Positions 5,102-64,000 of a DNA stretch of 64,000 nt are shown piece after piece. The number at the start of each line of letters is the position of its first letter. Within the stretch, counting starts at the first letter, position 1. The notes under the pieces were generated by a model that searched no databases, had not been told where the DNA came from, and worked only from the letters and a program-made list of their open reading frames with translations. The stretch is taken from NCBI GenBank assembly GCA_021845665.1, contig JAJZVO010000002.1, positions 1 through 64,000 on the forward strand, read 5' to 3'. The position numbers were made by a program, and so were the translations under genes. The stretch comes from Bacteroidota bacterium. Its GTDB lineage: Bacteria > Bacteroidota > Ignavibacteria > Kryptoniales > JAKASW01.

Positions 5102-5785
5102 TCAGCAAGCAGGGCACAGGCGCGTGAAGACGGTGTACCAGATGTCCTTGAACGGGTAACTCGATGGAAGCTCTATCCAGATGCGCCTGAATGTGTGACG
5201 GACGCGGGCGGCAGCTTTGAGAATCCGTAGCCGCACCGTCACCATATGTGCTGTGGCTAACTCTGTGCCATGAAGCTTCCGACGAAGTTGAAGAAGGAGA
5301 GTGCATGCAAAGCCATGCAAAAGAAGCCGGAATTGATTTGCGGAAAACCGATGGCAACTGAGGCGATCGGCTTTCATATCGAGTTTCAATTCCTTTATCA
5401 TCTGGTTTTCTACCTCACCTCGCATTGCGTAGAAATCGTAATCGTTCTCGGCTTCGCCCGTCAGACTTGTAACCACGAAACGCTGGTTCTCTCCTTCGAT
5501 GCTAACTTCCGTCTTCATTACTATCCGCCGCTTTTTGTCCCATGAGCTTGCACGGTAATATATCGACTCAAATGTCCTTACTTTTATCTCCGTCTTTTTG
5601 CATTCCTCACGAGCCCGCTCCAAGTTCTTCTCGTTTAACGACTTAAGAGGTGATGTCCCCTGAAACCCTGTCACGTAGTCTAAGTGCTCCGCTTCACAAA
5701 ACTCGTAAAGTTCAGGAATAGCAAATCCCCGGTCGGCACGTACTATTATCCGAGCATTAGGCCACTGAGAGCGCAAACGTTTCAC
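5102..5785 (-). pseudogene. IS1380-type transposase, N-terminally truncated
   Basis: 227 codons remain, beginning with an in-frame GTG just after an upstream stop. The piece contains the DDE-type segment ARIIVRADRGFAIPELYEF, the conserved ENQMIKELKLDMKADRLSC block with the catalytic-type glutamate, and the C-terminal stretch FSANQFRLLLHGFACTLL. These are typical of the IS1380 group of IS4-related transposases. A full transposase of this type is about 430-480 residues, so roughly the N-terminal half is lost. No terminal inverted repeats are evident around the fragment. It is a dead remnant and marks an old insertion between the metalloprotease operon and the reductase gene. Confidence 0.78.
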
Positions 5786-5920
5786 TATACGCGGCTATCG
5801 GCGCGCAATGGCGTATGAATCTCGCATTGCTTATTATACACAAGGCCGGGGTCATTCGGCCGGAGGAGTGTAATAGGGACCGGGCGCGGCGATGAGTTTG
5901 CTCTTAAACTGAATCCATGG

Positions 5921-6436
5921 ATGAGAAAACTGATTCTAAATCTGGCAGTTAGTCTCGACGGTTACATTGAGGGACCGAAGGGGGAATATGACTGGTGTTT
6001 TACGGATCAGGACTATGGGATGACGGGATTCCTGGGCAGGATCGATGCTGTCTTCTTCGGCAGAAAGAGCTACGAGCTTGTTTGCCCGATGGGTCCGAAT
6101 GCCTACCCGAATCTTGCGAGGTATGTTTTCTCGAAAACGCTCAGGAGCGCTGAAGGCGCGGTGGTCATCGGCAGAAATGTCAAGGCGAACGTGGAGACGC
6201 TCAAGCGGAAGAAGGGAAAGAACATCTGGCTCTTCGGCGGGGCGGAGCTGACAAACAGTCTTATTTCGCTGGGTCTAGTCGACGAGGCTCTTCTTTCTGT
6301 ACACCCTGTGGTTCTCGGAGGAGGCAAGCCGCTGTTCAAGGAGTCGGACCAGAGACTCAAACTGAAACTCGTTGGGACGAAATCGTATTCGACCGGGCTG
6401 GTGCAGCTCTCGTACAGATTCAAGAAAAACAAATGA
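5921..6436 (+). CDS. Dihydrofolate reductase family protein (RibD C-terminal domain)
   Basis: 171 residues. The start MRKLILNLAVSLDGYIEGP is the classic opening of the RibD-C/YwjB/YyaP branch of the DHFR superfamily. A FGRKSYE segment, the cofactor loop WLFGGAELTNSL and VVLGGGKPLFKE follow in the usual order. The length is typical. Proteins of this branch bind NADPH, and many have unknown substrates; the sequence does not say whether this one reduces dihydrofolate. The hydrolase gene follows 33 nt downstream on the same strand, so the two may be co-transcribed. Confidence 0.85.
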   Translation: MRKLILNLAVSLDGYIEGPKGEYDWCFTDQDYGMTGFLGRIDAVFFGRKSYELVCPMGPNAYPNLARYVFSKTLRSAEGAVVIGRNVKANVETLKRKKGKNIWLFGGAELTNSLISLGLVDEALLSVHPVVLGGGKPLFKESDQRLKLKLVGTKSYSTGLVQLSYRFKKNK

Positions 6437-6469
6437 GGTCATAACAGGTTGGAAAGGAACGCGATCAAG

Positions 6470-7471
6470 ATGAATGCTACTGCCGTATCGATTAATCGTA
6501 AAGGATTTCAGCGCACGCTCGCCTTCAGTTTCATTCTGATTCTGGTGACGACTTTCGCTGCCGCGAACGCTTCGGCTCAAAGCGACAGGGACACGCAGGG
6601 CGCGTATGCCTGGGTCGACGGTGCGCATCTCTGGTTCCAGATCAGGGGACACGGCGATCCGGTAGTGGTGATTCCCGGCGGGCCGGGCGACTCTCATCTT
6701 TACCTCACTCCATGGTTCGACGAGCTGGCGGAACACCACAAACTGATATACTACGACCCGTTCGGCTGCGGCAAATCGGACAGGGCCTCCAATCCTAGCG
6801 AATATTCATTTGAACGGAACGTGAAGGATCTCGAGGGATTGCGCATCGACCTCGGCATCGAGAAGTGGACGGTGATAGGCCATTCATATGGCGGCATGGT
6901 GGCACAGGCCTATGCAATTAAGTATCCGAATTCGGTGAACAAACTTATCCTCTCGAATACATTTTACGACGGAGAGATGTGGCAGGAGAACGACGATAAC
7001 TCGAATTACGAGATCAAGAACCAGTATCCCGGCATATGGGAGCAGCTGATGGCGCTGCGGAACCAGGGACTGGTCTCGAGCTCGCCCGAATGCATGAAGC
7101 TGTACGACGAAGTCCCGGCGGGACTCCTCTATTATTACAATGCAGCCGATGCGGACAAAGTGCGGAACGACTCGTCGAGCTTCAACCCTCAGGTCTATTA
7201 CCGGATTGTCGGAGCGGACGGGGATTTCCTTATCGGGGGGGACGTTGCCAAGCTCGATTTCCGGACGGAGCTGAAGAATCTTAAGATGCCCGTTCTGATT
7301 CTCGCCGGGAGATTCGACCGGATCGCCGTCCCGAGGTTCGCCGATAAGTTCAAGGAATACTGCCCGCAGGCGAATTTCGTCATGTTCGAGAAGAGCGGAC
7401 ATTTGCCCTTCATTGAGGAGACAGGGAAGTACTTCGATGCGATAGAGGAGTTCATGAAGCAGGGGAAGTAG
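6470..7471 (+). CDS. Secreted alpha/beta hydrolase, proline iminopeptidase-like
   Basis: 333 residues from the ATG at 6470, which has GGAAAGGA about 11 nt upstream; a TTG at 6449 is in frame but lies before this site. A signal peptide (FSFILILVTTFAAANASAQ) precedes the fold. The oxyanion segment PGGPGDSHLYL, the nucleophile elbow GHSYGG, the acid in AGRFDRIA and the histidine in KSGHLPF are all present, giving a complete Ser-Asp-His triad. The GGPG motif and general order match the prolyl aminopeptidase (S33) branch. The substrate is unknown; the signal peptide indicates export. A run of seven G lies near 7236 inside the gene. Confidence 0.85.
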   Translation: MNATAVSINRKGFQRTLAFSFILILVTTFAAANASAQSDRDTQGAYAWVDGAHLWFQIRGHGDPVVVIPGGPGDSHLYLTPWFDELAEHHKLIYYDPFGCGKSDRASNPSEYSFERNVKDLEGLRIDLGIEKWTVIGHSYGGMVAQAYAIKYPNSVNKLILSNTFYDGEMWQENDDNSNYEIKNQYPGIWEQLMALRNQGLVSSSPECMKLYDEVPAGLLYYYNAADADKVRNDSSSFNPQVYYRIVGADGDFLIGGDVAKLDFRTELKNLKMPVLILAGRFDRIAVPRFADKFKEYCPQANFVMFEKSGHLPFIEETGKYFDAIEEFMKQGK

Positions 7472-7488
7472 TAAGGCCCTTGACAGGG

Positions 7489-7593
7489 TACAACGATGTA
7501 TCCGGCGACTGCATCGATGTGCCGCTGAGGTGCAACGATGAAGGCGACAAGTAAAACGATCTACCGGGCAAGTGTATTGCTCTTTCGCTGCCG
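7489..7593 (+). repeat. Four to five degenerate 21-bp tandem units, relic of a heptad-coding repeat
   Basis: Units start at 7489, 7510, 7531, 7552 and more weakly at 7573. They share the core TGCAACGAT or close variants at the same phase. Read on the plus strand they give seven-residue periods such as VQRCIRR and LHRCAAE, interrupted by a stop. The repeat length and the hydrophobic-Q-R/S pattern are the same as in the 14-unit array at 60389-60682. I read this as a decayed copy of the same repeat class; it is not a gene. Confidence 0.5.
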
Positions 7594-7657
7594 TATCATC
7601 TTTCGACCCGTTCTTCCAATAATAACCGAACAATTCCGAAGGATAATTCGACATCGG

Positions 7658-9655
7658 TCAGCCTTTCATGAATTTGGATCCCTCGTCTTCCATTTCATAT
7701 TGTGTAAGGTCAGACTGCAATATCCACCCGGTCATCTGACCGCACGATTTGCAGAACGAATAACTGTCGGAACCGACAACCGGTTCGGGTTTATTCCATG
7801 AAGCGCCGATCTGATGGTCAATCGGTTTGAGGACGAGTATCGTATCATGCTTAAGGGACTTGACGTTCATGATGTGGACCGATATAGGGTTCTCGAAATG
7901 GACCACGAAAGCGTTTACCAGGGAGAAGCCGGCCTGCTTGAGAGCCGTTGTCAGCTTTGCCCAGGCCTCCGGTCGCCAGTGGTGATAGGTAAAGATCAGC
8001 CTGCCGTGCGGGCGTTTCAGGACGCGGTTCGATTCTTTCCATATCTTTCCGATGACCGAAGCGAATTTGTCTTAGTCCGCCGAAGTCTCTGCAACGGCCG
8101 AACCGCGCGCGATGTACTGCCACTCCACTTTGTCGGGAAGGAAACTCTTCAGCCAGCAGCGGAAGAAGTGTGACAAACCGCTGTACTGAACATTGTCGAA
8201 GGCGGGTCTGTGACGACGAAATCAACCGACTCAGCCTGGAGGGGCATACGGCTGGAGTCGTTCTGAGCAACGAAGAACATCCTTTTCTTACCGGCGAATT
8301 CATCAACTGACGACACTTCCGTTCCGATATCCACCTCATCGGGGATGACCACCTTCTTCCAGGTCTTGCCAACCCTGCGGCGCTAAATGGGTTTTCTTGC
8401 CCATTCTCCGGCGGCAGCGATCCGGCTTTCGAAAAGAGTGTTCAGTGTTCCGGAGGTGCTGCGTGAGAAAGTCGGATTGTTCTCCAAGGCGGTGTAGGGC
8501 AACGCATAAGCGTGGTGAGCGAACACATGTCTAATTGCGCCCGGTCTTCTCTTTGCGGCGCCCTTGTAACCACACAGCGCCGAATTGAACTCAAGAGAGG
8601 CTGACATTAGCATTGAGAGCCAGAGTCTGTGCTCGTCGGGGATTGCACGGAAGAGTTCCTGAGAGTGGACAATATAGGCGAGCTGACGGGGGAAGAAGAG
8701 TTCATAGAAATGTTTGTGTCTCCCTGTTCAGCAGGTCGCCGGACTTCGGGCCGTCAGGTATTTGAAAGTCGGCGTCGGTGAAATGCGCATTTCTCTTTAC
8801 CCATCGCGCGGCTGCCGATATATTCATGTTGTCCGCCGGATCAATCTTCTTTAGGAAACCCTTATGTGTTTCGCAGTGGCCCGCTATTACAAGTGGAACG
8901 TATCGTTCCGCAAACGTATTGGAAAGGATATCGGAGGGCTTTCGGTTGACTCCATTCTTGTTAGCTTCATCTTTCTCGACTATGGGCCACGATCGACCGT
9001 CAATGGAAAATTCCAGAGAGGGATAAGTGGTTCTAATGTTCTTCTCGGTGCCGTCCGGTTCTTCCCGCAATGCAAGTGAATCGGCCACGAGTACTTCGCA
9101 ATCCGGCCCTAATTTCCGTTGCCCATAGAGAGTAAACTGGATTTCTGCCGCTCCTCCGCATTCGGGGCAGGCGGTCACGTAATATTTCAACATGCGCTTG
9201 ACGAGCTCGCTTCTGAAGGCGCGAAACACTTTTTCTTTTTCCGAAAGCGGCACATCGGAGAGCGACGCCTTTGCCTGCAGGACAGGGATCGGATCGATAT
9301 CGAAGCCGATGACGTAAGCACCGGGCCTGATTGCCTCGTGAAGGATAGTACCTACGCCCATCATCGGATCGAGAACGGTGACGCCTTCGAGACCGCCGGG
9401 AAAGTAATAATCTCTTCGCGCAGGATCGGGCACCAGCTGTTTCAGTATATGCCAGAACGTTGTCCCTGACCGCCGCGCCCACCGTTTGTGCAAATATGTG
9501 TTCGGTCTGAAGAGATGCTTGTTGAAAGATTCGATGTGTGCAAGAGCGTTGGCCGACTCTTCAGGGAAAGAGGTGTCGATGGCAACCGTGTCGCCAAGCT
9601 GGACCACCGGTTCATCGGCGACGAGGAAATCAAGGCCTATCTGGGTCGGCGTCAC
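7658..9655 (-). pseudogene. Zn-ribbon adenine-specific DNA methylase (COG1743/DUF1156-like), multiply frameshifted
   Basis: The N-terminal part, open from a GTG at 9655 to 8702, has the SAM-binding motif VTVLDPMMGVGTILHEA, then IGFDIDPIPVLQAKASL and a zinc-ribbon half CPECGG. Near 8710 the coding frame shifts and continues as HKHFYELFFPRQL down to a stop at 8383. It resumes as IPDEVDIGTEVSS through the catalytic VDFVVTDPP, shifts again near 8204, meets a stop at 8072-8074, and ends with CKSCGQMTGW and KFMKG at 7658. Laid end to end the pieces resemble one methylase of about 660 residues, longer than any open piece. Several independent lesions make it a pseudogene rather than a sequencing slip. 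No restriction partner is seen beside it. Confidence 0.78.
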
Positions 9656-9965
9656 GTTTAGCCGACTCTTTTCTTTTTGGTGGTGATCATAGGTTTATTG
9701 AAACATATTGAGAAGAAAGAGGAATTACTGAATTGTCTCCGCTAAGCAATAAAAATGACGCCGGACTATTGCATGTAAAATCGTCACATGGCGAAAGACA
9801 CTCTTGGTGACGGGTTTGGTGGCAGGGGAGGCCTCGCAAGCCGTAGTGGAAGGTCGCCTTCTTCCCGTGCGACGGCAAACCTTGACAGAGTTGCGCGACC
9901 TTCAGCCTGAGCCCTACAATATTTCTTCCCCATATCCGTTATAATTACCAGAAGCAAGGACAGAA
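9656..9965. other. Intergenic region upstream of the ECF sigma gene
   Basis: No convincing gene. A weak promoter candidate for the sigma factor gene combines TTGCGC at 9891-9896 with TACAAT at 9915-9920 (18 nt apart). TTGACA at 9882 has no -10 element at a usable distance. Confidence 0.3.
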
Positions 9966-10535
9966 TTGACAGCCGCTACTTCGAAGCAGATAGAAGACAC
10001 TATTGAGAAGGAGAGAAGAAAACTACTCTCCTTCATCAGACGAAATGTGCTTTCGAAGGAAGAGGCGGAAGATATATTCCAGGATGTTCTTTTCCAGTTT
10101 GCGAGCGCCTTCGAGTCGATCGAGTTCATGGACCGCGTGTCGGCGTGGCTGATGCGCGTCGCGAAAAACAGGATAATCGACTCCCGAAGGAAAAAGAGAC
10201 CGCAGGCTTTCAGAGATATCAGGATCAGGGTGCCGGGAGATGAAGAAGGAAATTCGCTCTCAATGGAAGACATGATCCCGGACTTCAGCGGGCTGCCGGA
10301 CGAAGTTTACTGGCAGAAGCAGTTTTGGGACGAGATCGAAGACGCGCTCGACGAACTTCCCCGCGAGCAGCGCGACGTATTCGAGATGACGGAGTTCGAA
10401 GGAATGAGCTTCAAAGAAATTGCAGAGATAAAGCAGGAGCCGCTTAACACGCTCATTTCCAGGAAGCGATATGCGGTGCTGTTCCTGAGAAAGCGTTTGA
10501 AAACTATTTACGAGGAGTTAAAAGAAAATGTGTAG
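9966..10535 (+). CDS. ECF-type RNA polymerase sigma factor
   Basis: 189 residues, starting with TTG (AAGGA 7 nt upstream; no in-frame ATG exists before region 2). Region 2 is visible in EEAEDIFQDVLFQFASAFESI and the -10 recognition helix in RVSAWLMRVAKNRIIDSRRKK. Region 4 is in LPREQRDVFEMTEFEGMSFKEIAEI followed by NTLISRKRYAVLFLRKRL. The length and spacing are those of ECF sigma factors. Its last codons overlap the next gene by 8 nt, so translation is probably coupled. No anti-sigma factor of the usual zinc (HxxxCxxC) type is adjacent; the small membrane protein downstream may serve that role (inference). Confidence 0.92.
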   Translation: MTAATSKQIEDTIEKERRKLLSFIRRNVLSKEEAEDIFQDVLFQFASAFESIEFMDRVSAWLMRVAKNRIIDSRRKKRPQAFRDIRIRVPGDEEGNSLSMEDMIPDFSGLPDEVYWQKQFWDEIEDALDELPREQRDVFEMTEFEGMSFKEIAEIKQEPLNTLISRKRYAVLFLRKRLKTIYEELKENV

Positions 10536-10860
10536 CATGAATAATCATGAGTTCAAGCACAGAAGGAGATGGTGGTTTGTTTTCGGACTGCCGTTCATGC
10601 TGGCTTTCCTGGCGCTCGCCGGGCTGGTCTTCATGCTCCTGTGGAATGCACTTCTTCCCGCGATATTCGGGTTGAAGGCAATCGGATACTGGCAGGCGCT
10701 TGGTCTGCTCGTGTTGGCGAAGATCCTCTTCGGCAGCTTCGGAAGAGGACCACGTACTTACTTTTCGCGCCGCCGGCAGTGGGAGCGCTGGAAGGAATGG
10801 CACAAGGAACACCCGGACTTCCACGAACACGAGCATGGCGAAGATGAAACGGATGCCTGA
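10528..10860 (+). CDS. Small membrane protein with a His-rich tail, coupled to the ECF sigma factor
   Basis: 110 residues, overlapping the sigma gene by 8 nt, with GAGGAG 9 nt before its ATG. A basic N-terminus (KHRRRWW) precedes two hydrophobic segments (about 15-45 and 52-70). A basic stretch (RRRQWERWKEWHKEH) and a metal-binding-like tail HEHEHGEDETD follow. No known domain is recognised. Its coupling to the ECF sigma gene suggests a membrane-bound regulator or sensor, perhaps metal-responsive, but that is inference from position and composition. Confidence 0.75.
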   Translation: MCSMNNHEFKHRRRWWFVFGLPFMLAFLALAGLVFMLLWNALLPAIFGLKAIGYWQALGLLVLAKILFGSFGRGPRTYFSRRRQWERWKEWHKEHPDFHEHEHGEDETDA

Positions 10861-49480: not shown

Positions 49481-50282
49481 ATGACGAAGCAGAAGGTATG
49501 GCGGAATATTCTTCCATTGGCTTTAATGGGGTTGCTCATCACGGGCGGTTTCAGCTGTAATCTTATAGGCCCACATAGTCCGTCGGGCCCAGATACCACT
49601 TCCAGCAACTTTACATTCCAGACATATACATTCGGCGGGAATGCCGGAGGCTGCTTGTTGAATGACGTTTCGATCGTAAACGACACAGATATATGGGCGG
49701 TAGGAGCAATCTATCTCGACTCTGCTGATGGCAACCCGGACCTTTCCCCTTACAATGCAGTACATTGGAATGGAAAGGCGTGGACCCTCTTGAGGATTCC
49801 TTACATATACCAGGGACAACCTTTCTACCATCCTATTAGCGCAGTGTTTGCGCTTAGCCCTGACGATGTTTGGTTCGGAGGCAACGGGATGGAACATTGG
49901 GATGGTCAGAAGTTTTCAGATATTGAAGCTGTTAATGCATTTGGGTTCGGGGAGCTCATGACAAGCATATGGGCCAGCTCCGACAATAACATCTACGTTG
50001 TTGGCAGTGGGGGAACCGCCGCGCATTTTGGCGGTAGTTGGCAGGCCTTGAATACCGGTACGACCACCGATATCAACTTGCATACGCGGCAATGGCACAA
50101 ACGACATAGTCGTAGTGGGAGGATTCGGATTCATCGCTCACTGGAACGGCGCGCACTGGGAAATATATCCCCCGTCAATGGACGTGCTATACACAAAAGT
50201 AGCCATGAAGGGAAACATGATCGTTGCCGTCGGTAACTCCGCGACCAGCGAGCAAGCTGTTATTACGGTAGGTAGCAGATAA
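49481..50282 (+). pseudogene. Putative surface lipoprotein, first of a tandem family, frameshifted
   Basis: The first 200 codons read as an intact member of the family: hydrophobic start, lipobox-like GGFSC, then a SNFTFQTYTFGGNAGGCLL-type mature N-terminus and propeller-like turns (WAVGAIYLDS, VWFGGNGMEHWDGQKF, IYVVGSGGTAAHFGGSW). At about 50090 the frame is lost. One base away it continues as IRGNGTNDIVVVGGFGFIAHW and VAMKGNMIVAVGN to a stop at 50282. Since the downstream frame aligns with the intact relatives, a single indel is the cause: a real mutation or a sequence error. No homopolymer lies at the site. Confidence 0.7.
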
Positions 50283-50307
50283 ATAGCCAAATCAAGAACC
50301 AAAACAG

Positions 50308-50397
50308 GAGAGAAACGAAAACTAAAGAATTACTCAGTTAATTAACGAGGCGGGGTGTCGTGAACGCCTCTTTCGGCAGGCCCAAAGGAATGACTAA
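50308..50397 (+). repeat. Array spacer repeat, copy 1
   Basis: The word CTCAGTTAATTAACGAGGCG, followed by GGGTGTCGTGA and GGCAGGCCCAAAGGAATGAC, recurs with few changes at 51454-51549 and 52612-52701. Each copy lies directly upstream of an array gene and includes the ribosome binding AGGA. It marks the duplication unit. Confidence 0.8.
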
Positions 50398-51453
50398 ATG
50401 GAGAAAGCAGACAGAATGAAAACAGGATTTCTCGTATTGATCTCTACCGTCATAATGACCTTGAGTTCCTGTAACAAGGTAGTAGGTCCGCATTACGCTA
50501 CACAGCCGGGTCCGAGAGACTACACGTGGCAGGTGGACACGATCAACGCCGGAGGCAACATACTCAGTAGCATAGACGGCTCTTCCGACAGCAGCGTCTG
50601 GGCGGTAGGCGAAGCTGGAGACTTTCGGTTTACCATCTGGCACTTCGACGGGAAGAGGTGGGCGACCGACAGCGTGAATCGCCCGCTGAACCCGAATGCA
50701 GTTCGAGCATTTTCGCCGACCGACGTCTGGGCGGTAGGGGAGGACGGACAGATATGGAACTACAATGGGATCAACTGGAGTCAGCAGGCTCGAGTACCTC
50801 TTCCTAATGGCGCGCAAGTCATGTTTCTCAGTGGTATAGATGGAAACTCGCCAACGAACCTTTACACAGACGGAGAGTATTTTGACAATTCAGGTAACGC
50901 ATATCCATTGATGTACCACCTAAATGGAAATACATGGGACAAAGTAACGACCCGGAACCTACCCGATGTGGCCCTCTACAGAATGCGATTCTATGCCCCA
51001 GGTAGGGCACTGGTATGGGCTGAGAAATCGGAGGCGAACGGGTCGCCGCCAGATTCAGAGCAGATTTATTCTTTCAATGGAACCAGTCTTCAGCTCATTT
51101 ACGGTGGCCCAGAAACACTTGACGGCGCCGCAGATTTTGCGCCTATCTCTGGCGGAATTGTTATCCTTGAGGGAAGAACTCTGTTTTTTTCAAGCGGCGG
51201 TAGTCCTCAGAAAATTGCATCTGTCATGGATTCGCCCTTCGGTTGGCAGATTGCCGCCCGAAGTACCGAAGATGTATTCCTTCCAGCAAGTGACGGTATC
51301 GGCGAGTATAACGGCACAGATGTTCAATATCTATATAGGCAGTCCGGGGCAAACATCATAGCTCTTAAGGCATTTCCTAAGAGCCTTTTTGCAATCGGCT
51401 ACAGCTATACAACACATTTGAACTACGTTTATCGCGGCTATCTGCCACAGTAG
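50398..51453 (+). CDS. Putative surface lipoprotein of the tandem family (type A)
   Basis: 351 residues. Lipoprotein signal: basic MEKADRMK, hydrophobic stretch, lipobox LSSC. The mature part has blade-like turns: VWAVGEAGDFRFTIWHFDGK, VWAVGEDGQIWNYNGINW, ALVWAEKSEANG, FAIGYSYTTHLNYVYRGYLP. This suggests a small beta-propeller, but no family is certain. Its first 145 residues are almost identical to the next gene, while the rest diverges. The start is supported by AGGA 8 nt upstream in the conserved spacer. Confidence 0.75.
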   Translation: MEKADRMKTGFLVLISTVIMTLSSCNKVVGPHYATQPGPRDYTWQVDTINAGGNILSSIDGSSDSSVWAVGEAGDFRFTIWHFDGKRWATDSVNRPLNPNAVRAFSPTDVWAVGEDGQIWNYNGINWSQQARVPLPNGAQVMFLSGIDGNSPTNLYTDGEYFDNSGNAYPLMYHLNGNTWDKVTTRNLPDVALYRMRFYAPGRALVWAEKSEANGSPPDSEQIYSFNGTSLQLIYGGPETLDGAADFAPISGGIVILEGRTLFFSSGGSPQKIASVMDSPFGWQIAARSTEDVFLPASDGIGEYNGTDVQYLYRQSGANIIALKAFPKSLFAIGYSYTTHLNYVYRGYLPQ

Positions 51454-51549
51454 AGGAGAAAAGAAGACTAAAGAACTACTCAGTTAATTAACGAGGCGGG
51501 GTGTCGTGAGCACCGCCGCCTCTTGCGGCAGGCCCAAAGGAATGACAAA
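51454..51549 (+). repeat. Array spacer repeat, copy 2
   Basis: Near-identical to 50308-50397 from CTAAAGAACTACTCAGTTAA onward, with a short insertion (GCCGCC) before the GCGGCAGGCCC part. It again ends at the start codon of an array gene. Confidence 0.8.
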
Positions 51550-52611
51550 ATGAAGAAAGACAAGAGAATGAGAATGGGATTTCTTTTAGTGATCTTTGCC
51601 GTCATAATGACCTTGAGTTCCTGTAACAAGGTAGTAGGTCCGCATTACGCTACACAGCCCGGCCCGAGAGACTACACGTGGCAGGTGGACACGATCAACG
51701 CCGGAGGCAACATACTCAGCAGCATCGACGGCTCTTCCGACAGCAGCGTCTGGGCGGTAGGCGAAGCTGGAGACTTTCGGTTTACCATCTGGCACTTCGA
51801 CGGGAAGAAGTGGGCGACCGACAGCGTGAATCGCCCGCTGAACCCGGATGCTGTTCGAGCTTTTTCATTAACTGACGTCTGGGCGGTAGGTGAAGACGGG
51901 CAGATATGGAATTACAATGGGGTTGATTGGAGCCAACAGGCTCGAGTACCTCTTCCTAATGGCGCGCAAGTCATGTTTCTCAGTGGTATAGATGGAAACT
52001 CGCCAACGAACCTTTATGCAGATGGAGAATTCTTTGATAGTCTAGACAACGCTCATCCTTTGATGTACCACTTATCCGGCAGTCAATGGTCACAAGTCAA
52101 CATCCAAGACATTCCGGATTGCGGTTTGTACAAGATGAGCTTCTACGCCTCAAATAGAGCGTTGGTACTCGGATTTAATCATTTGCCGAATGGGTCGGCC
52201 CCTGACTCTGATAAAATATTCTCATTTGGCGGAAGTAATCTTCAAGAGATTTACTCGGGCATAGAGAACCGCACAGGCTGGGCTGACTTTTGCCGGATAG
52301 CGGGCGGCTACATCCTTTTAGAAGGCACTACGCTATCGTTTTATGACGGGGGACAATCTCAATCTCTCCTTATGATTGTGAGCTCTAATAGCGGGGCAGG
52401 TATAGTCGCAAGGAGCACGGACGATGTCGTTCTATCTATGCTTGACGGGATTGCCCAGTACAACGGCAGTGACCTGGAATATTTATATCACTTCGCTGGT
52501 TCGAAACTGTATGTTACGGGGATGAAGATGTTCTCGAAAAGTCTATTTATTCTCGCCCACGATTATTCTAACGGCCTTACTTACGTTTACCGCGGATATC
52601 TGCCACAGTAG
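51550..52611 (+). CDS. Putative surface lipoprotein of the tandem family (type A)
   Basis: 353 residues from the ATG at 51550, the site equivalent to 50398 in copy 1. Lipobox LSSC. Residues about 20-155 match the previous gene nearly letter for letter at DNA level too; the C-terminal half is only related (SLFILAHDYSNGLTYVYRGY against SLFAIGYSYTTHLNYVYRGY). The mosaic pattern of identity followed by divergence suggests recent duplication with selection or gene conversion on the N-terminal part. Function unknown; the predicted location is the outer envelope. Confidence 0.75.
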   Translation: MKKDKRMRMGFLLVIFAVIMTLSSCNKVVGPHYATQPGPRDYTWQVDTINAGGNILSSIDGSSDSSVWAVGEAGDFRFTIWHFDGKKWATDSVNRPLNPDAVRAFSLTDVWAVGEDGQIWNYNGVDWSQQARVPLPNGAQVMFLSGIDGNSPTNLYADGEFFDSLDNAHPLMYHLSGSQWSQVNIQDIPDCGLYKMSFYASNRALVLGFNHLPNGSAPDSDKIFSFGGSNLQEIYSGIENRTGWADFCRIAGGYILLEGTTLSFYDGGQSQSLLMIVSSNSGAGIVARSTDDVVLSMLDGIAQYNGSDLEYLYHFAGSKLYVTGMKMFSKSLFILAHDYSNGLTYVYRGYLPQ

Positions 52612-52701
52612 AGGAGAAAAGAAAACTAAAGAACTACTCAGTTAATTAACGAGGCGGGGTGTCGTGAGCACCTCTTGCGGCAGGCCCAAAGGAATGACTA
52701 A
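52612..52701 (+). repeat. Array spacer repeat, copy 3
   Basis: Almost the same as copies 1 and 2 and ends at the start of the chimeric gene (52702). The gap from 53224 to 53240 before the next gene has no such copy, showing where the type A block ends. Confidence 0.75.
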
Positions 52702-53223
52702 ATGGAGAAAGCAGACAGAATGAAAACAGGATTTCTCATATTGATCTCTACCGTCATAATGACCTTGAGTTCCTGTAACAAGGTAGTAGGTCCGCATTAC
52801 GCCACCCAGCCGGGTCCGAGAGACTACACGTGGCAGGTGGACACGATCAACGCCGGAGGCAACATACTCAGCAGCATAGACGGCTCTTCCGACAGCAGCG
52901 TCTGGTTTGTGCCAGGACACTACTATGTCGTTGGCCAGGGTATTTACGAGAAGACTTCTCTTTCCCAAAGCACATGGCAGGAGGACAGTGTTGATACGGT
53001 CGATTTCTTCTCATGTATCCGCGGCAATTCATGGAACGATTTCTTTGTCGCGGGAGGATACGGACAATTACTTCACTTCAACGGAAAAACATGGAGGTCA
53101 TATCAAAACGTACTCGGATTGCAGCAAGGGGGTATCGCAAGTATAGCAGTCAAAGGAAATTTGATGATAGGAGTCGGGTATCTTGGCTCAAAGGCTGTAG
53201 CATTTGTCGGTAAAAGAAGTTGA
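52702..53223 (+). CDS. Chimeric lipoprotein: type A head fused to type B tail
   Basis: 173 residues. The first 68 residues are the type A signal, lipobox and N-terminus (to SSIDGSSDSSVW). From FVPGHYYVVGQGIYEKTSL onward it is the last third of the type B gene at 53240. Sequences on both sides of the junction (about 52897-52905) share GCGTCTGG with both parents, so the fusion arose by recombination or deletion at a short homology. The frame is intact and the spacing normal, so it may be translated. It lacks the central blades of both parents. Confidence 0.8.
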   Translation: MEKADRMKTGFLILISTVIMTLSSCNKVVGPHYATQPGPRDYTWQVDTINAGGNILSSIDGSSDSSVWFVPGHYYVVGQGIYEKTSLSQSTWQEDSVDTVDFFSCIRGNSWNDFFVAGGYGQLLHFNGKTWRSYQNVLGLQQGGIASIAVKGNLMIGVGYLGSKAVAFVGKRS

Positions 53224-53239
53224 AGAGAGGAGTCAGAAG

Positions 53240-54313
53240 ATGAAATACATCCTGTTGTTGACTGGAATATCAATCATTGCGCTAACATCCATGACATGTC
53301 ATGCGCCGACAGGGCCGTCCAGCAGTAGCGCAGACACCACAAGCAACGATTGGACGTTTACAGAAACGATGCTGGGAGGGGCCTCGAGCAGCGAGTTCCT
53401 TGATGTGTCCATCGTGAGTGATACGCTTGCATATGCAGTCGGTGACATTTATGTGAGCGATTCAACAGGTCACATCAATCCAACTTCTTATGGTGCGGCG
53501 ATATGGAATGGAAGAAGCTGGTCTCTTCGCCGCGTGTACACCCGCAACCAGAGTGGATATCAAGAAAATATAAGACCAATCTTGGGAGTCGTTGCGTATT
53601 CACGGTCGGAAATCTGGTTAAGTGACGGGAATGCATTCGTCTGGAATGGAAACGATTCCGAGCTGACGGCATACTGGATAGGAGGCTATCCGGGAAATCC
53701 GTCACCACTTCTTGGACCCGGTCAATACGTCGCGCGGCTATGGGGAACCTCAGACCAAAATCTGTACGGTGCTGGGAACGGGGGGGGGCTCGCTCGCTAC
53801 GACGGAAGCTCGTGGCGCGCACTTTCCAGTGGTACTACTCTAAACATACAGGACATCTACGGATATGGTGGCACGGTTCTCGCGGTCGCCTCCGATCCCG
53901 GTGAAAGTCTCGACAAAGCGATACTTCAAATCAACGGTACGAATGTTACGCAACTATCCACCGCCGGTATCCAATGGCCGTTAAGCGGCGTCTGGTTTGT
54001 ACCGGGACACTACTATGTTGTTGGCCAGGGTATTTACGAGAAGACTTCTCTTTCCCAAAGCACATGGCAGGAGGACAGTGTTGATACCGTTGATTTTTTT
54101 TCGTGCATTCGCGGCAACGCATGGAACGATTTCTTCGTCGCTGGAGGATATGGACAATTGCTTCATTTCAACGGAAAGAGCTGGCGGTCATACCAGGATG
54201 TGCTCGGATTGCAGCAAGGCGGAATTGCGAGTATAGCGGTCAAGGGAAACCTGATGATAGGGGTCGGATACCTTGGCTCAAAGGCTGTAGCATTTGTGGG
54301 TAAAAGAAATTGA
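53240..54313 (+). CDS. Putative surface lipoprotein of the tandem family (type B), with a G9 tract
   Basis: 357 residues from the ATG at 53240 (GAGAGGAG upstream). Signal and lipobox-like TSMTC, then a Ser/Thr-rich tail region and blade-like turns: FLDVSIVSDTLAYAVGDIYV, LYGAGNGGGLARYDGSSW, ISGVWFVPG-like segments, DFFVAGGYGQLLHFNGKSW. Codons for the glycines in NGGGL form an uninterrupted G9 run. The protein is a divergent member of the same array; about 45% of its features match the next gene by eye. Function unknown. Confidence 0.75.
   Translation: MKYILLLTGISIIALTSMTCHAPTGPSSSSADTTSNDWTFTETMLGGASSSEFLDVSIVSDTLAYAVGDIYVSDSTGHINPTSYGAAIWNGRSWSLRRVYTRNQSGYQENIRPILGVVAYSRSEIWLSDGNAFVWNGNDSELTAYWIGGYPGNPSPLLGPGQYVARLWGTSDQNLYGAGNGGGLARYDGSSWRALSSGTTLNIQDIYGYGGTVLAVASDPGESLDKAILQINGTNVTQLSTAGIQWPLSGVWFVPGHYYVVGQGIYEKTSLSQSTWQEDSVDTVDFFSCIRGNAWNDFFVAGGYGQLLHFNGKSWRSYQDVLGLQQGGIASIAVKGNLMIGVGYLGSKAVAFVGKRN
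53780..53788 (+). repeat. Nine-base poly-G tract inside a lipoprotein gene
   Basis: G9 encodes three glycines in frame. The gene at 54333 lacks the run at the equivalent place (GPLGQL). One-base slippage would truncate the protein in its middle. Confidence 0.8.
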
Positions 54314-54332
54314 AGAGAGGAGAAGGACAAAT

Positions 54333-55373
54333 ATGAAATACTTCTTGATGCTGTTAGGAATATCAATATTAGCCCTTACATCCATGACATGTCACGCACC
54401 TACTGAACCGCCGACGGGAGCAGACACCACGAGCAATGATTGGACGTTTACGGTTAATAAATTGGGTGATGGAAATAGCAGCCAGTTGTTTGATGTGTCT
54501 ATCGTTAATGACACGCTTGCTTATGCTGTGGGAGCTATTTACAGGAAGGATAGTTCTGGTAACTTCGATCCAAATGCTTACAACTTAGCAAAGTGGGACG
54601 GGAGAAACTGGCAATTACTTCATCTTCCGTTTTACATTTTTTGGGGACAACAGTTTAAAGCTTCCGTCCCAACGCAAGCCATTTGGGCTTTTAATGGGTC
54701 TGAAATCTGGATAGCATCGAGCAATTCTCAGATCGCTGTTTGGAATGGGGATTCCGAAACGAGCGTTATGAGCGTTCCGATCGCAGTAAACAAACTGTGG
54801 GCTGCGGGCGAAAACGAAATTTATGCAGCCGGCCCCTTAGGTCAGCTCGCCCTGTACAACGGCAGCACTTGGCAGAAAGTGCAAAGTGGCACAAGCCTGA
54901 ACTTCTATGATATTTACGGTTTAGGTGGTCAGGTCCTCGCCGTCGCCTCAAATCCCTTCTCGAGTTTTGAGAGCGAAATAGTACAGCTCAGCGGCACAAA
55001 TGCCACAACGATATCGGACAACCCGATAACCGGATCTCTGATGGGCGTCTGGTTTGTTCCGGGCCAGCAATATTACGTAGTGGGAAGCGGTGTGTATGAA
55101 AAGAAGACTCTTTCGGACGCCAGCTGGTCGGCTGATGCGGTGGATAGTTCTCAAACATTCATGCAGGGAGTGCGGGGGAATGCCGCGAACGACGTGTTCG
55201 TCGTAGGTTCTTTCGGTCAGATCTGGCATTTCAATGGGAAGACATGGAGGAGTTATTTGAACCAGACTGCGGTGCAGAACGGGGGATATGGAAGCGTCGC
55301 AGTCAAAGGGAACCTCGTGATAGCTGTAGGGCAGGATAACCCTTATGCGGTCGCTGCAATCGGAAGAAGATGA
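54333..55373 (+). CDS. Putative surface lipoprotein of the tandem family (type B)
   Basis: 346 residues from the ATG at 54333, 19 nt after the previous stop (GAGAGGAGAAGGA). Same signal type (MKYFLMLLGISILALTSMTC) and similar repeats: LFDVSIVNDTLAYAVGAIYR, WAAGENEIYAAGPLGQLALY, NFYDIYGLGGQVLAVASNPF, DVFVVGSFGQIWHFNGKTW. The gene is uninterrupted and ends the array. A trypsin-like protease gene begins 104 nt downstream, possibly in the same transcript. Confidence 0.75.
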   Translation: MKYFLMLLGISILALTSMTCHAPTEPPTGADTTSNDWTFTVNKLGDGNSSQLFDVSIVNDTLAYAVGAIYRKDSSGNFDPNAYNLAKWDGRNWQLLHLPFYIFWGQQFKASVPTQAIWAFNGSEIWIASSNSQIAVWNGDSETSVMSVPIAVNKLWAAGENEIYAAGPLGQLALYNGSTWQKVQSGTSLNFYDIYGLGGQVLAVASNPFSSFESEIVQLSGTNATTISDNPITGSLMGVWFVPGQQYYVVGSGVYEKKTLSDASWSADAVDSSQTFMQGVRGNAANDVFVVGSFGQIWHFNGKTWRSYLNQTAVQNGGYGSVAVKGNLVIAVGQDNPYAVAAIGRR

Positions 55374-59810: not shown

Positions 59811-60211
59811 GAAGAACAGATCTCACTTGTATCGTGCAGGCAGATTATTTAGTTTCAGGAAGATTCGTGCATGGTGGCACGGTCTGATGTCAGGGATTGG
59901 CAGACCACAACTGAGTAAGGCGGAGCGAAGTCACTGCGCCCGGGAAAGCGGCACCAAAGGGAGGTGCGCACGGGCAGGAACCTGGATAGAAGGCTTCGTC
60001 CGGCGGAATTGAGGTATATGGGAGTACGAGGCTGCACATGCGAGGCAGCCATCAAGTCTGCAGGAATCCTCTATAAATACATCGTGGAACGAGATGGCGA
60101 CAGAAACGTCGTTGTCGCCGAATTCGTGCGCAGTGACAGGGCTGCAATGCATCCTGTGAAATGGGCGTTAAATGCCCGGGATTCGCCGCGCGCGTACTGA
60201 GGGATTTCAGA
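59811..60211. other. Intergenic region upstream of the heptad-repeat gene
   Basis: A 78-codon frame at 59964-60200 has no recognisable feature. One 6-bp hairpin GGCTGC/GCAGCC lies near 60030-60052. I cannot assign a function to this stretch. Confidence 0.35.
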
Positions 60212-60760
60212 ATGGGCGTAATGTTAGTGAAAGCGTTTGCGGACCTGTTGGAAATGCCCGTGATGCGGGACGGAGAAGCTGTCTGCCGCGATACAGGGGT
60301 CAAAGGCGGGATGAGGCTGCCAACCGGGCAAACCATCTCCATGGAACCGGTAAGAGGCATTTCTAATCCGAAGCGGAGCAGGATGCGGACTCTGCAGAGC
60401 GATGAAAATGTGATGCAACGCGGTCTGCAAGCCCTGCAAAGCGACCGGGATGTGATGCAGAGCGGATTTGCAGTGACACAACGCAGCCGGAAAGTGATTC
60501 AGCGCAGATTTACAGTCATGCAGAGCAATTTGAAAGTCCTGCAAAGGGGTCGGAATGTGATACAAAGCAGGGTTGCGGTAATTCAAAGGGTACTTACAGT
60601 GATTCAAAGCGATTGGGAGTGTCAGCTTTGTCAAAGTCATCTCCAACATTGTCAATCGCAGGTCCTGCAAAGCAGAGGGGCAGTCGTGAAAAAGGGGGCG
60701 GCATTTAAAATAGAGTGTTTTTCCGCTCAAGGGGAGCGAATCGGGAAAAAAGAAACATAG
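60212..60760 (+). CDS. Heptad-repeat protein encoded by 21-bp tandem repeats, function unknown
   Basis: 182 residues from the ATG at 60212 (GAGGG about 10 nt upstream); an ATG at 60161 without such a site is also in frame. The centre is a run of seven-residue units with consensus hydrophobic-Gln-(Ser/Arg)-x-x-x-Val: LQSDENV, MQRGLQA, LQSDRDV, MQSGFAV, TQRSRKV, IQRRFTV, MQSNLKV, LQRGRNV and so on. Spacing of hydrophobics every 3.5 residues would suit a helical rod or coiled coil. N- and C-termini show no known domain. The opposite strand is also open here, but its starts are worse. The helical-protein gene follows 22 nt later, so the pair may be co-transcribed. No function can be claimed. Confidence 0.55.
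   Translation: MGVMLVKAFADLLEMPVMRDGEAVCRDTGVKGGMRLPTGQTISMEPVRGISNPKRSRMRTLQSDENVMQRGLQALQSDRDVMQSGFAVTQRSRKVIQRRFTVMQSNLKVLQRGRNVIQSRVAVIQRVLTVIQSDWECQLCQSHLQHCQSQVLQSRGAVVKKGAAFKIECFSAQGERIGKKET
60389..60682 (+). repeat. Fourteen tandem 21-bp units
   Basis: Units begin every 21 bp from 60389. The consensus is roughly GTGATGCAAAGC followed by nine variable bases. Units 12 and 13 are the most diverged. All are an exact multiple of three, so the reading frame is kept throughout. A smaller decayed set of the same type lies at 7489-7593. Confidence 0.9.
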
Positions 60761-61490: not shown

Positions 61491-61833
61491 GCGCCGGTCT
61501 CAGGGAAGAGACAGGCGATAAAGAGTCCGATTCGTTCCCCTCTGTGCGGCAGCCTGTCGATCAAGCCCGAAGGGCTGGAGTTATTGTAGATGATAGAACG
61601 AAGAGAGAAACAAACCCTGAAAGGGTTGAATTTTGGCTTTGCCGGGCCAACCCTTGAACCGCCTTGCTATTGGAGGTCGGTTTTGATTATGAGCTTTGAC
61701 CGGATATATTCCATCAAAGAACCGTTTCAGCGTTTGCTGGGAATCATGATTCCATGGGCTGCCAACCGAGTAAGAATGGAGTGTGCTGGCTTGTGACGGG
61801 TTAAAGACTGGGTAGCCTCACAGAAAAGCTGGA
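61491..61833. other. Intergenic region with a structured inverted repeat
   Basis: No supported gene. AAGGGTTG (about 61620-61627) pairs with CAACCCTT (about 61649-61656), enclosing an inner TTGGC/GCCAA stem, so a plus-strand RNA here would fold strongly. A short companion stem AACCCT/AGGGTT overlaps its left arm. It might be the terminator zone of the helical-protein gene, but there is no clear T tract. Confidence 0.4.
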
Positions 61834-61905
61834 ACAAAAACGCCCCTGAAGAACAGGGGCAAGGCCAATAAGCCTACAGAATAATCTTTATTGTAGTAAG
61901 CTTTC
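61834..61905 (-). ncRNA. Candidate tracrRNA of the type II-C CRISPR-Cas system
   Basis: Read on the minus strand from about 61905. An anti-repeat-like segment TCTGAAAGCTTACTACAAT leads into AAAGATTATTCTGTAG. A stem-loop AGGC-TTATTG-GCCT (61875-61862) follows, then the terminator GCCCCTG-TTCTT-CAGGGGC (61860-61842) with GTTTTTG. The CTACAAT...GCCCC...GGGGC layout parallels the Neisseria meningitidis tracrRNA that I recall. Its own promoter lies just upstream and cas9 is divergent, starting 72 nt away. By inference the CRISPR repeat should begin near ATTGTAGTAAGCTTTC or GTTGTAG. No array is inside the window to confirm pairing. Confidence 0.8.
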
Positions 61906-61911
61906 AGACAC

Positions 61912-61940
61912 ATGATAAGGCTCAGCCCTGAATATGTCAA
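61912..61940 (-). promoter_or_regulatory. Promoter of the tracrRNA candidate
   Basis: On the minus strand: perfect TTGACA (plus 61935-61940), exactly 17 nt, then TATCAT (plus 61912-61917; five of six matches to TATAAT). The predicted start is near 61905. It is among the best sigma-70-type promoters in the window. Confidence 0.8.
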
Positions 61941-61976
61941 GGAGAAAGCATGCATGAATTCTTTTTGGAGGAAAAC

Positions 61977-64000
61977 ATGATAACTACACTTGGACTTGAC
62001 CTCGGTACCAATTCAATCGGCTGGGCTTTGATTGAAGACGGAAGGAAAATAATAAGAAGCGGCGTAAGGATTTTTCCCGTCGGAGTTCAGGAAGAAGATC
62101 TCCTGAAGAACGGTAAGGAGGTGTCTAAGAATATTGGACGCCGCATGGCACGGGGTGCGCGTCGAAGGCGCTTCCGCTTCAAACTGCGCCGCAAGCAGCT
62201 GATACAACTGCTCAAAATGAATCAGATGCTTCCGGAGAACGGCGACTTCCTCAGCACAAAAGAGCTTTATGCTTTAAGGGCGAAGGGGCTTGAAAGCAAG
62301 CTGTCACTCGAGGAATTCGGGCGAATCCTGCTCATGCTCAACAAGCGGCGGGGATTCAAGAGCAACCGTAAAAGCGCAGACAATCCTGTAAAGAAGAAAG
62401 AGGAAGGAGTTGTAAAGGAAGGGATACTCAAACTGCAGCGGCAAATTGACGCGGAGCAATGCAGAACCGTAGGCGAGTATTTCTATAAGTTGTTCAAGAG
62501 AGCGGAGGAAGAACCGGATTGGCCTAGCGAAAGCACGCCCATAGAAAGAATTCGGGGTCGCTTCGTTGGGCGTGAAATGTACGAAAGAGAATTCGAATTG
62601 CTCTGGGCTAAACAAAGTAGCTACCATCCGGAAGTTCTGAACGGCGATTTGAAAACTCGGATCGGTGACGAGACCATTTATTACCAAAGACATTTAAAAT
62701 CCCAAAAGGGTCTCGTCGGCAAATGCCGCTTTGAACCGAAGAAACGCTGCGCCGCGAGAAGCTCATTTGAATTTCAGGAATATCGTATATGGCAACAGCT
62801 CTGGATGGTACGCTTTGCGTCAGGCAACCGTAACGGTGAAGAATTAAGCGCAGAAGAAAAACAAAGAGCCCGCTCCGCGTTAATGAGAACAAGAAAGTTG
62901 ACTGAAGCGAAACTGAAAACACTCCTGGGCATACACCGAGATGTCCGTTTGAATGACGTGTTCGATATGAAAGGTAATCGTACCACTGTGGATCTGATCG
63001 AAGCTTTAGGCGAAAAGACCTGCGGCGAGCTTAGCGAAGCACAATTATTTGAATTATGGCACATTCTCTCCTACTGCGACAATACGGACAAACTGAAGGA
63101 CATCGTAAAGAAAAAGATTTCCAACGGATTATTGCCTCAACTAACTGAGGAGCAAGTCGATGCTTACTCCGAGATAAATCTTGAAGAAGGCTTCTGCAAT
63201 CTCTCCAGGAAGGCGCTTAATAAAATACTTCCATTCCTGCGTCAAGGCATGGGATTGGCGGATGCCATTGCAAAAGCCGGATATGACCCCGCCAGGAAGG
63301 TTGTGAAGGGAAGAGATGAGGAGCAAAACAAGATTCCCCCTCTTGGATCGAACGAGCTTCGAAATCCTATAGTTCAACAAATGTTGAGCGAGACTTTTCG
63401 TCTCGTCAATGCCGTGATAAAAGAATACGGTAAACCCGACATGGTACGCATCGAACTAGCACGCGAGCTTAAGAAGCCTAAGGCAAAACGAGAAGAAGCA
63501 AGAACCGGCGCGATACGGAAGCGGGCCCTCAGAGAAGAGTATGCGGAGTTCCTCACCCGGGAACTCGGATACCGCATCGAGCCGAACTCTCCGGAAATAA
63601 GAAAGTACGAGCTCTGGCTGGAGATGGGATGTGAAGACCTGTCGCTGAACGATTTGAAGACCTTCATGAGGAACAACAGAGTCACTGATTCGGTGAAATA
63701 CAAACTCTGGAAGGAGTGTGGTCGAATATCTCCATATTCGGGCAAAGTCATTTCCCTGAGCAGACTCTTCAGTCCCGAGATACAGATCGAACACATTCTA
63801 CCATACAGCCAAACGATGAATAACGAGTTCGGAAACCTATGCTTGTGTGAGGCAGATATCAATAAGCTGAAAGGCAACAGGCTTCCTTACGAGTACTTTG
63901 AGTCGATCGGAAAGCTCGACGAATTCAAAAACAACGTCGCTCAGCTTCAGAATGAAGCAAAGAGAAGACGCTTTCTTGCGAAGGAAATACCGGAAGGTTT
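61977..64000 (+). CDS. cas9: CRISPR-associated endonuclease Cas9 (type II-C), 5' part; gene continues past the window
   Basis: 674 codons are present from the ATG at 61977 (TTGGAGG 7 nt upstream) to the right edge. RuvC-I is GLDLGTNSIGWAL with the catalytic Asp 8. The arginine-rich bridge helix is RRMARGARRRRFRFKLRRKQ (about 58-77). RuvC-II is VRIELARELKK with its Glu. The HNH part reads IQIEHILPYSQTMNNEFGNL with catalytic His 606, then NKLKGNRLPYEYF. The first REC region is short, as in compact type II-C enzymes. It cleaves DNA matched by a crRNA-tracrRNA guide. RuvC-III and the PAM-interacting domain lie beyond the window. Confidence 0.97.
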   Translation, partial: MITTLGLDLGTNSIGWALIEDGRKIIRSGVRIFPVGVQEEDLLKNGKEVSKNIGRRMARGARRRRFRFKLRRKQLIQLLKMNQMLPENGDFLSTKELYALRAKGLESKLSLEEFGRILLMLNKRRGFKSNRKSADNPVKKKEEGVVKEGILKLQRQIDAEQCRTVGEYFYKLFKRAEEEPDWPSESTPIERIRGRFVGREMYEREFELLWAKQSSYHPEVLNGDLKTRIGDETIYYQRHLKSQKGLVGKCRFEPKKRCAARSSFEFQEYRIWQQLWMVRFASGNRNGEELSAEEKQRARSALMRTRKLTEAKLKTLLGIHRDVRLNDVFDMKGNRTTVDLIEALGEKTCGELSEAQLFELWHILSYCDNTDKLKDIVKKKISNGLLPQLTEEQVDAYSEINLEEGFCNLSRKALNKILPFLRQGMGLADAIAKAGYDPARKVVKGRDEEQNKIPPLGSNELRNPIVQQMLSETFRLVNAVIKEYGKPDMVRIELARELKKPKAKREEARTGAIRKRALREEYAEFLTRELGYRIEPNSPEIRKYELWLEMGCEDLSLNDLKTFMRNNRVTDSVKYKLWKECGRISPYSGKVISLSRLFSPEIQIEHILPYSQTMNNEFGNLCLCEADINKLKGNRLPYEYFESIGKLDEFKNNVAQLQNEAKRRRFLAKEIPEG

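Follow-up and report, generated by a model that had tools for sequence, protein, structure and literature searches.

Several type II-C CRISPR-Cas9 systems have been described that resemble the locus reported here. CRISPR1 of Riemerella anatipestifer has the gene order cas9-cas1-cas2, a tracrRNA upstream of cas9, repeats of 47 nt and a 16-nt anti-repeat, TGAAAGCAATTCACAA, and its authors suggested that 16 nt may suffice (PMC5006608). For the Fp2Cas9 system of Flavobacterium psychrophilum, TTG promoters embedded in the repeats and an in-place exchange of cas9 have been proposed, and the transcription and maturation of the tracrRNA were left unresolved (PMC10309648). In Campylobacter jejuni, which has a minimal cas9-cas1-cas2 set, promoters lie in the repeats and the crRNAs are started inside the array and matured together with the tracrRNA, with RNase III processing shown (PMC3656092). 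A catalogue of Cas9 orthologs distinguishes repeat:anti-repeat, nexus and 3' hairpin modules, and its clade X has repeats of 45-50 bp and duplexes described as bulge-free (PMC7606464).

The locus analysed here belongs to an uncultured Bacteroidota bacterium with a genome of 4.64 Mb. It begins in the window, i.e., the whole analysed stretch of 64,000 nucleotides, which covers the initial 64 kb of contig C17 (the contig extends to 141 kb). Gene order, position of the tracrRNA and length of the anti-repeat are those of Riemerella CRISPR1, whereas the repeat has 46 nt and begins with GTTGTAG, and the anti-repeat reads GAAAGCTTACTACAAT and forms a duplex interrupted by a UU/UU internal loop. As in F. 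psychrophilum this is a Bacteroidota II-C locus, although with a different Cas9. As in C. jejuni the cas set is the minimal one, although the complementary stretch here is 16 nt. The same modules as in the catalogue are present, but the duplex, compared by description, differs from the bulge-free ones of clade X in having a 2x2 internal loop. Since the Riemerella layout with its 16-nt anti-repeat and the features of C. jejuni and F. psychrophilum are already published, we regard the locus as a new member and not as a new class. An initial annotation of the window had overstated its novelty, the same architecture being on record for R. anatipestifer (PMC5006608).

A predicted tracrRNA gene divergent from cas9

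The cas9 gene lies on the plus strand at 61977-64000 of the window and continues to contig position 65222, encoding 1081 aa from an ATG behind GGAGG or 1090 aa from an ATG at 61950. This is an ordinary II-C size, and the word "compact" in the initial annotation does not apply. The product matches Pfam HNH_4 and Cas9_a as well as NCBIfam TIGR01865 (593.7 bits, cut-off 100), and it contains the RuvC and HNH motifs of a type II-C Cas9 along with an HHAIDA motif. To the right of the window follow the rest of cas9, cas1 (NMENI type, TIGR03639; cas1_NMENI 248 bits, cut-off 120), cas2, a terminator-like hairpin and the array, and the profile matches assign Cas9, Cas1 and Cas2 to type II. Only cas9, cas1 and cas2 were found between the tracrRNA gene and the array, with neither csn2 (II-A) nor cas4 (II-B) among them; a type II/NMENI cas1-cas2 pair lacking both fits subtype II-C. 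The array had been predicted to lie outside the window, and it was indeed located on the same contig, 2.7-4.9 kb right of the window edge (contig 66707-68881). In it a 46-nt repeat recurs 29 times without change, and the 28 spacers measure 30 nt except for one of 31 nt, a uniformity of repeats and spacers in keeping with a type II-C array. The minus-strand sequence of the repeat is GTTGTAGTTTGCTTTCAGAATGTTCTTTGAGTTATGTTCTTTCGAT.

We estimate a probability of about 95% that the minus strand next to cas9 carries the tracrRNA gene of this type II-C locus, transcribed from its own promoter. In the sequence layout the gene is divergent from cas9, and the minus strand of 61836-61940 reads TTGACA-N17-TATCAT-GTGTCT-GAAAGCTTACTACAATAAAGATTATTCTGTAGGCTTATTGGCCTTGCCCCTGTTCTTCAGGGGCGTTTTT. 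The -35 hexamer TTGACA (61935-61940) matches in 6 of 6 bases and is followed by a 17-nt spacer in a register that is the same in relatives; together with the -10 hexamer TATCAT (61912-61917) it makes up a sigma-70-like promoter that scores 11/12 against the consensus in the promoter scan, and the predicted +1 is 61905. Three promoter-like sites were found in the 500-bp region, compared with 0.4 per shuffle. The whole gene, about 70 nt long, is placed at 61836-61905 (minus strand) by model matches and conservation. It comprises the anti-repeat (61890-61905), which ends in CTACAAT (61896-61890), a nexus stem-loop AGA-UUAU-UCU predicted by the co-fold (61878-61887), a second stem-loop with the stem AGGC/GCCU (61862-61875), and an intrinsic terminator, GCCCCTG-TTCTT-CAGGGGC and then GTTTTT (61836-61860), identified by the terminator scan and the model alignment. 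The terminator stem occupies 61860-61842, next to it stands a single G, and the T5 tract lies at 61840-61836. In the fold, and in the homologues found with the covariance model R1 described below, the RNA has the nexus and the 3' hairpins ending in a terminator that are expected of a tracrRNA. The promoter, the RNA of about 70 nt, the CTACAAT core, the two stem-loops and the GCCCCTG/CAGGGGC terminator with T5 had all been proposed in the initial annotation, and all were located.

The anti-repeat lies outside the array and is complementary to the repeat. There are 30 copies of its core, GAAAGCNNACTACAAY, in the entire 4.64-Mb genome, 29 of them in the repeats and one in the tracrRNA gene, and the reversed control has no occurrence in the whole genome. 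A repeat starting near (G/A)TTGTAGTAAGCTTTC had been predicted from the window; the actual start, GTTGTAGTTTGCTTTC, agrees in 14 of 16 bases, and both misses make up the symmetric UU/UU internal loop. Pairing had been assigned to 61880-61911, and the repeat does pair there, but the segment concerned is 61890-61905, extending at most to 61908. The 16-nt core duplex alone has a predicted energy of -18.7 to -19.4 kcal/mol; with three upstream bases included the value is -23.9 kcal/mol, compared with -15.3 for the best of 5000 shuffles. In the co-fold, 8 bp, a 2x2 loop and 6 bp are followed by the nexus, the second hairpin and the terminator. Upstream sequence beyond nt 16 pairs no better than chance (24-67% of shuffles were as good), and a longer anti-repeat reaching into the promoter, which the first duplex scan had suggested, was ruled out by these shuffles. 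Five genomes have the same bases at repeat nt 1-17, while of the 19 positions 18-36 only 1 is invariant. With the first 17 nt invariant and the rest diverged, the duplex would contain only 14 bp in 16 nt, and in these sequences only the part of the repeat that the tracrRNA could pair with is held constant.

The same gene was found at the same place in five related loci (L003, L004, L005, L028, and L059), whose Cas9s are 56-67% identical to this Cas9, and the mean column identity of the tracrRNA is 94% over these five genomes and the window genome. Among the clade members the second stem is invariant and its loop varies in length; one terminator pair is U-A, G-C or A-U depending on the relative. 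Of 391 genomes of the class, 35 contain a match at E up to 0.01 to the covariance model R1, built from the six tracrRNAs, and the model also matches beside most of the cas9 loci tested; the weakest of these matches lie near the threshold. In wider relatives the nexus arms, read by eye, are AGA/UCU, GGA/UCC, GGC/GCC, GGG/CCC, or GGU/ACC, and this variation supports the hairpin; the second stem is extended to AGGCU/AGCCU or AGGCUUU/AAAGCCU. Few genomes carry this Cas9 clade. Both the clade and this tracrRNA are absent from all 12 other sampled genomes of the same genus, so the system is patchy. The matching repeat, the conservation in six genomes, the covariance model and the cas1/cas2 type together support the type II-C tracrRNA identity that had been proposed from the window.

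Two other identities of the RNA were considered, and both are very improbable. The gene might be a dead copy, with another RNA serving this Cas9, and relic tracrRNAs do adjoin replaced cas9 genes in the genus g11 relatives discussed below. The copy here, however, is the only one in the genome, its promoter, anti-repeat and terminator are intact, it falls in the tracrRNA clade that goes with its own Cas9 clade, and 29 of 29 repeats fit it. A regulatory small RNA such as scaRNA, encoded next to a II-C locus, could likewise be expected to have a promoter and a terminator of its own, and one Rfam small RNA model, JA04 (RF02732), aligns weakly over its full length to 61824-61905; the score of 29.2 bits lies below the gathering score of 81 bits, and the RNA does not belong to that family by this measure. 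But scaRNAs pair with the tracrRNA and carry repeat-like sequence (PMC6199352 and general background), whereas the RNA here complements the repeat and shows the nexus and hairpins that characterise tracrRNAs. As a side observation, JA04 is an Aggregatibacter small RNA model that may itself be a II-C tracrRNA.

The predicted 5' end and the short duplex

Single promoter matches in AT-rich sequence would be weak evidence, and three of five promoters taken singly do not stand out clearly from shuffles, 10-39% of which score equally well; the strength of the prediction lies in the shared register. In five of six clade members exactly 6 nt separate the end of the -10 hexamer from GAAAGC, and in the sixth the distance is 7 nt. 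Given this fixed spacing, transcription should begin at the first anti-repeat base, which means that the tracrRNA is probably born with its mature 5' end, the +1 resting on the promoter consensus. We propose that the first 16 nt of the tracrRNA would pair with nt 1-16 of the pre-crRNA repeat through a 6-bp upper stem, the UU/UU loop and an 8-bp lower stem, and that the nexus, second and terminator hairpins would serve as the handle bound by Cas9. The resulting 14-bp duplex would be short for RNase III. Interrupted duplexes of 14 bp are poor RNase III substrates, so the 3' end of the crRNA may form in another way. Since cas9, the crRNA and possibly host RNases would be needed as well, calling the guide "self-contained" went too far. 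From sequence, the guide pair of this Cas9 clade can now be specified as the tracrRNA (61905-61836) plus repeat nt 1-16 as the crRNA handle, and such a sequence is required for an in vitro test or a PAM screen. It also offers a testable answer to the question left open for Bacteroidota II-C systems, namely where the tracrRNA starts and whether it needs processing (PMC10309648).

The same tracrRNA could alternatively be cut from a longer precursor that starts upstream and is trimmed by RNase III as in C. jejuni, where two tracrRNA forms and RNase III-dependent crRNA ends were reported (PMC3656092). Co-processing is the rule in the characterised type II systems, and anti-repeats of 23-36 nt exist in related lineages examined. 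The chance-level pairing of the upstream sequence with the rest of the repeat (the 24-67% of shuffles given above) and the fixed-register -10 box 6 nt before the anti-repeat argue against a precursor, which we consider unlikely. It is also doubtful that the tracrRNA acts as a switch, in which the anti-repeat of the free RNA folds back on UGUAGGCUU and is released only by the crRNA. Folding of five clade members predicted this fold-back as the minimum-energy or centroid structure, with z of -3.5 to -4.3, a value to which the terminator contributes; its pairs, however, break in L029 and L030, and a swap test with 18 tracrRNAs gave only p=0.04, uncorrected for relatedness. An internal repeat mimic within the tracrRNA, striking in this clade, proved inconsistent in relatives and was rejected. 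A tracrRNA that starts at its mature 5' end is the reading followed below.

Possible exchange of cas9-tracrRNA cassettes

If transcription of the tracrRNA starts at the mature 5' end and its pairing is confined to nt 1-16 of a long repeat, the repeat would have two parts, the 5' one linked to cas9-tracrRNA and the 3' one to cas1-cas2. A two-part repeat would in turn allow cas9-tracrRNA cassettes to be swapped as units, with only the 5' part re-tuned afterwards. We put this forward tentatively for the Bacteroidota II-C systems, at somewhat less than even odds.

One line of support comes from another genome of the same genus, G002 (L042, G002:C18:73001-92000), whose Cas1 and Cas2 are 66% and 90% identical to ours, while the Cas9, of 1428 aa, shares 23% identity with ours and the tracrRNA is a different one. 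Between G002 and contig C17 (65218-67210) the DNA is similar from the cas1 start through the array, and no flanking DNA is shared by the two loci within the stretch compared. The G002 repeat shares 24 of 29 bases with ours at positions 18-46 and differs at 8 positions, including 6-7, where GA replaces AG and fits the tracrRNA of G002. Each repeat prefers its own tracrRNA (-18.7 and -17.4 vs. -11.3 and -12.2 with the other's). The Cas1 tree joins G002 to our genome as its sister (100/100), within the clade of our Cas9 group (97/95). The Cas9 tree puts G002 far away, on a long branch that leaves the exact place unsure. This looks like an exchange of cas9-tracrRNA, and judging from the Cas1 tree it probably took place in G002.

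Replacement in place, no more than a possibility for this pair, is clearer in genus g11. In G085 (L045) and G096 (L035) the Cas1 proteins are 87% identical, and the Cas9 proteins can be aligned only over 263 residues, with 32% identity. At the DNA level the two loci resemble each other only in an 85-bp old tracrRNA (93%) and in the region from cas1 onwards (75%), and between the old tracrRNA and cas1 lie a foreign tracrRNA and a foreign cas9. Both loci have tandem tracrRNA genes upstream of cas9 (L045 6966-7152, L035 2526-2730), of which the outer one is of the resident g11 type, a relic, and the inner one belongs to the foreign cas9; the relic in G085 is without most of its anti-repeat. L003 holds a single array of 64 repeats (5644-10537) in which the 27 repeats next to cas2 fit the local tracrRNA (-18.3), the others being one intermediate repeat, 35 of an older type, GTTGTGATTTGCTTC, that have GA at bases 6-7 as in G002 and fit poorly (-8.7), and a degenerate repeat at the end. 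A second site for the old-type repeat was not found in the L003 genome. Judging from the comparison of relatives, cas9-tracrRNA and cas1-cas2-array seem to evolve as modules that can be exchanged.

Spacers, repeats and other parts of the window

A search of 50,697 phage records with all spacers joined found nothing at E 0.1. Among three spacer-derived patterns compared with IMG/VR, two had no match and one had a single 18-mer match that did not extend over the spacer. As no protospacer was found, no PAM could be derived. The tracrRNA core was not found in IMG/VR either, and there is therefore no sign of a viral copy. Within the array, the spacer AGCAAGTGCTTGCAGCAGAACACGGCATCA is present three times near the cas-distal end (L002 8426-8683). 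Among the four spacers at L002 6753-6782/7742-7771 and 7362-7391/7666-7695, one pair overlaps on opposite strands with a single mismatch (TATCAGACAGCTCAAYGA), and the members of the other pair are almost the same (GAATGTCCCCCCTTATYTGRCCTATCA); the overlapping and near-identical spacers may reflect repeated sampling of related targets.

The hairpin between cas2 and the array (L002 6622-6650) is a strong terminator-like one with 12 bp, called on both strands. Four repeats of 46-47 nt (L002 6707-6752, L003, L006, and L028) contain TTGCTT at nt 9-14 and, after another 17-18 nt or so, a TAnnnT-like hexamer around nt 32-38, both weak matches, which form a possible candidate for a repeat-borne promoter as described for Flavobacterium. 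Elsewhere in the window, the stretch 60161-60760 has open frames on both strands and a degenerate internal repeat (plus strand ...VMQSGFAVTQRSRKVIQRRFTVMQSN...), and is likely a repeat-rich sequence and not a real gene. A tandem family of paralogous lipoprotein-like genes occupies 49481-55373, in which the ORF at 52702-53223 fuses the beginning of one paralogue with the end of a second one.
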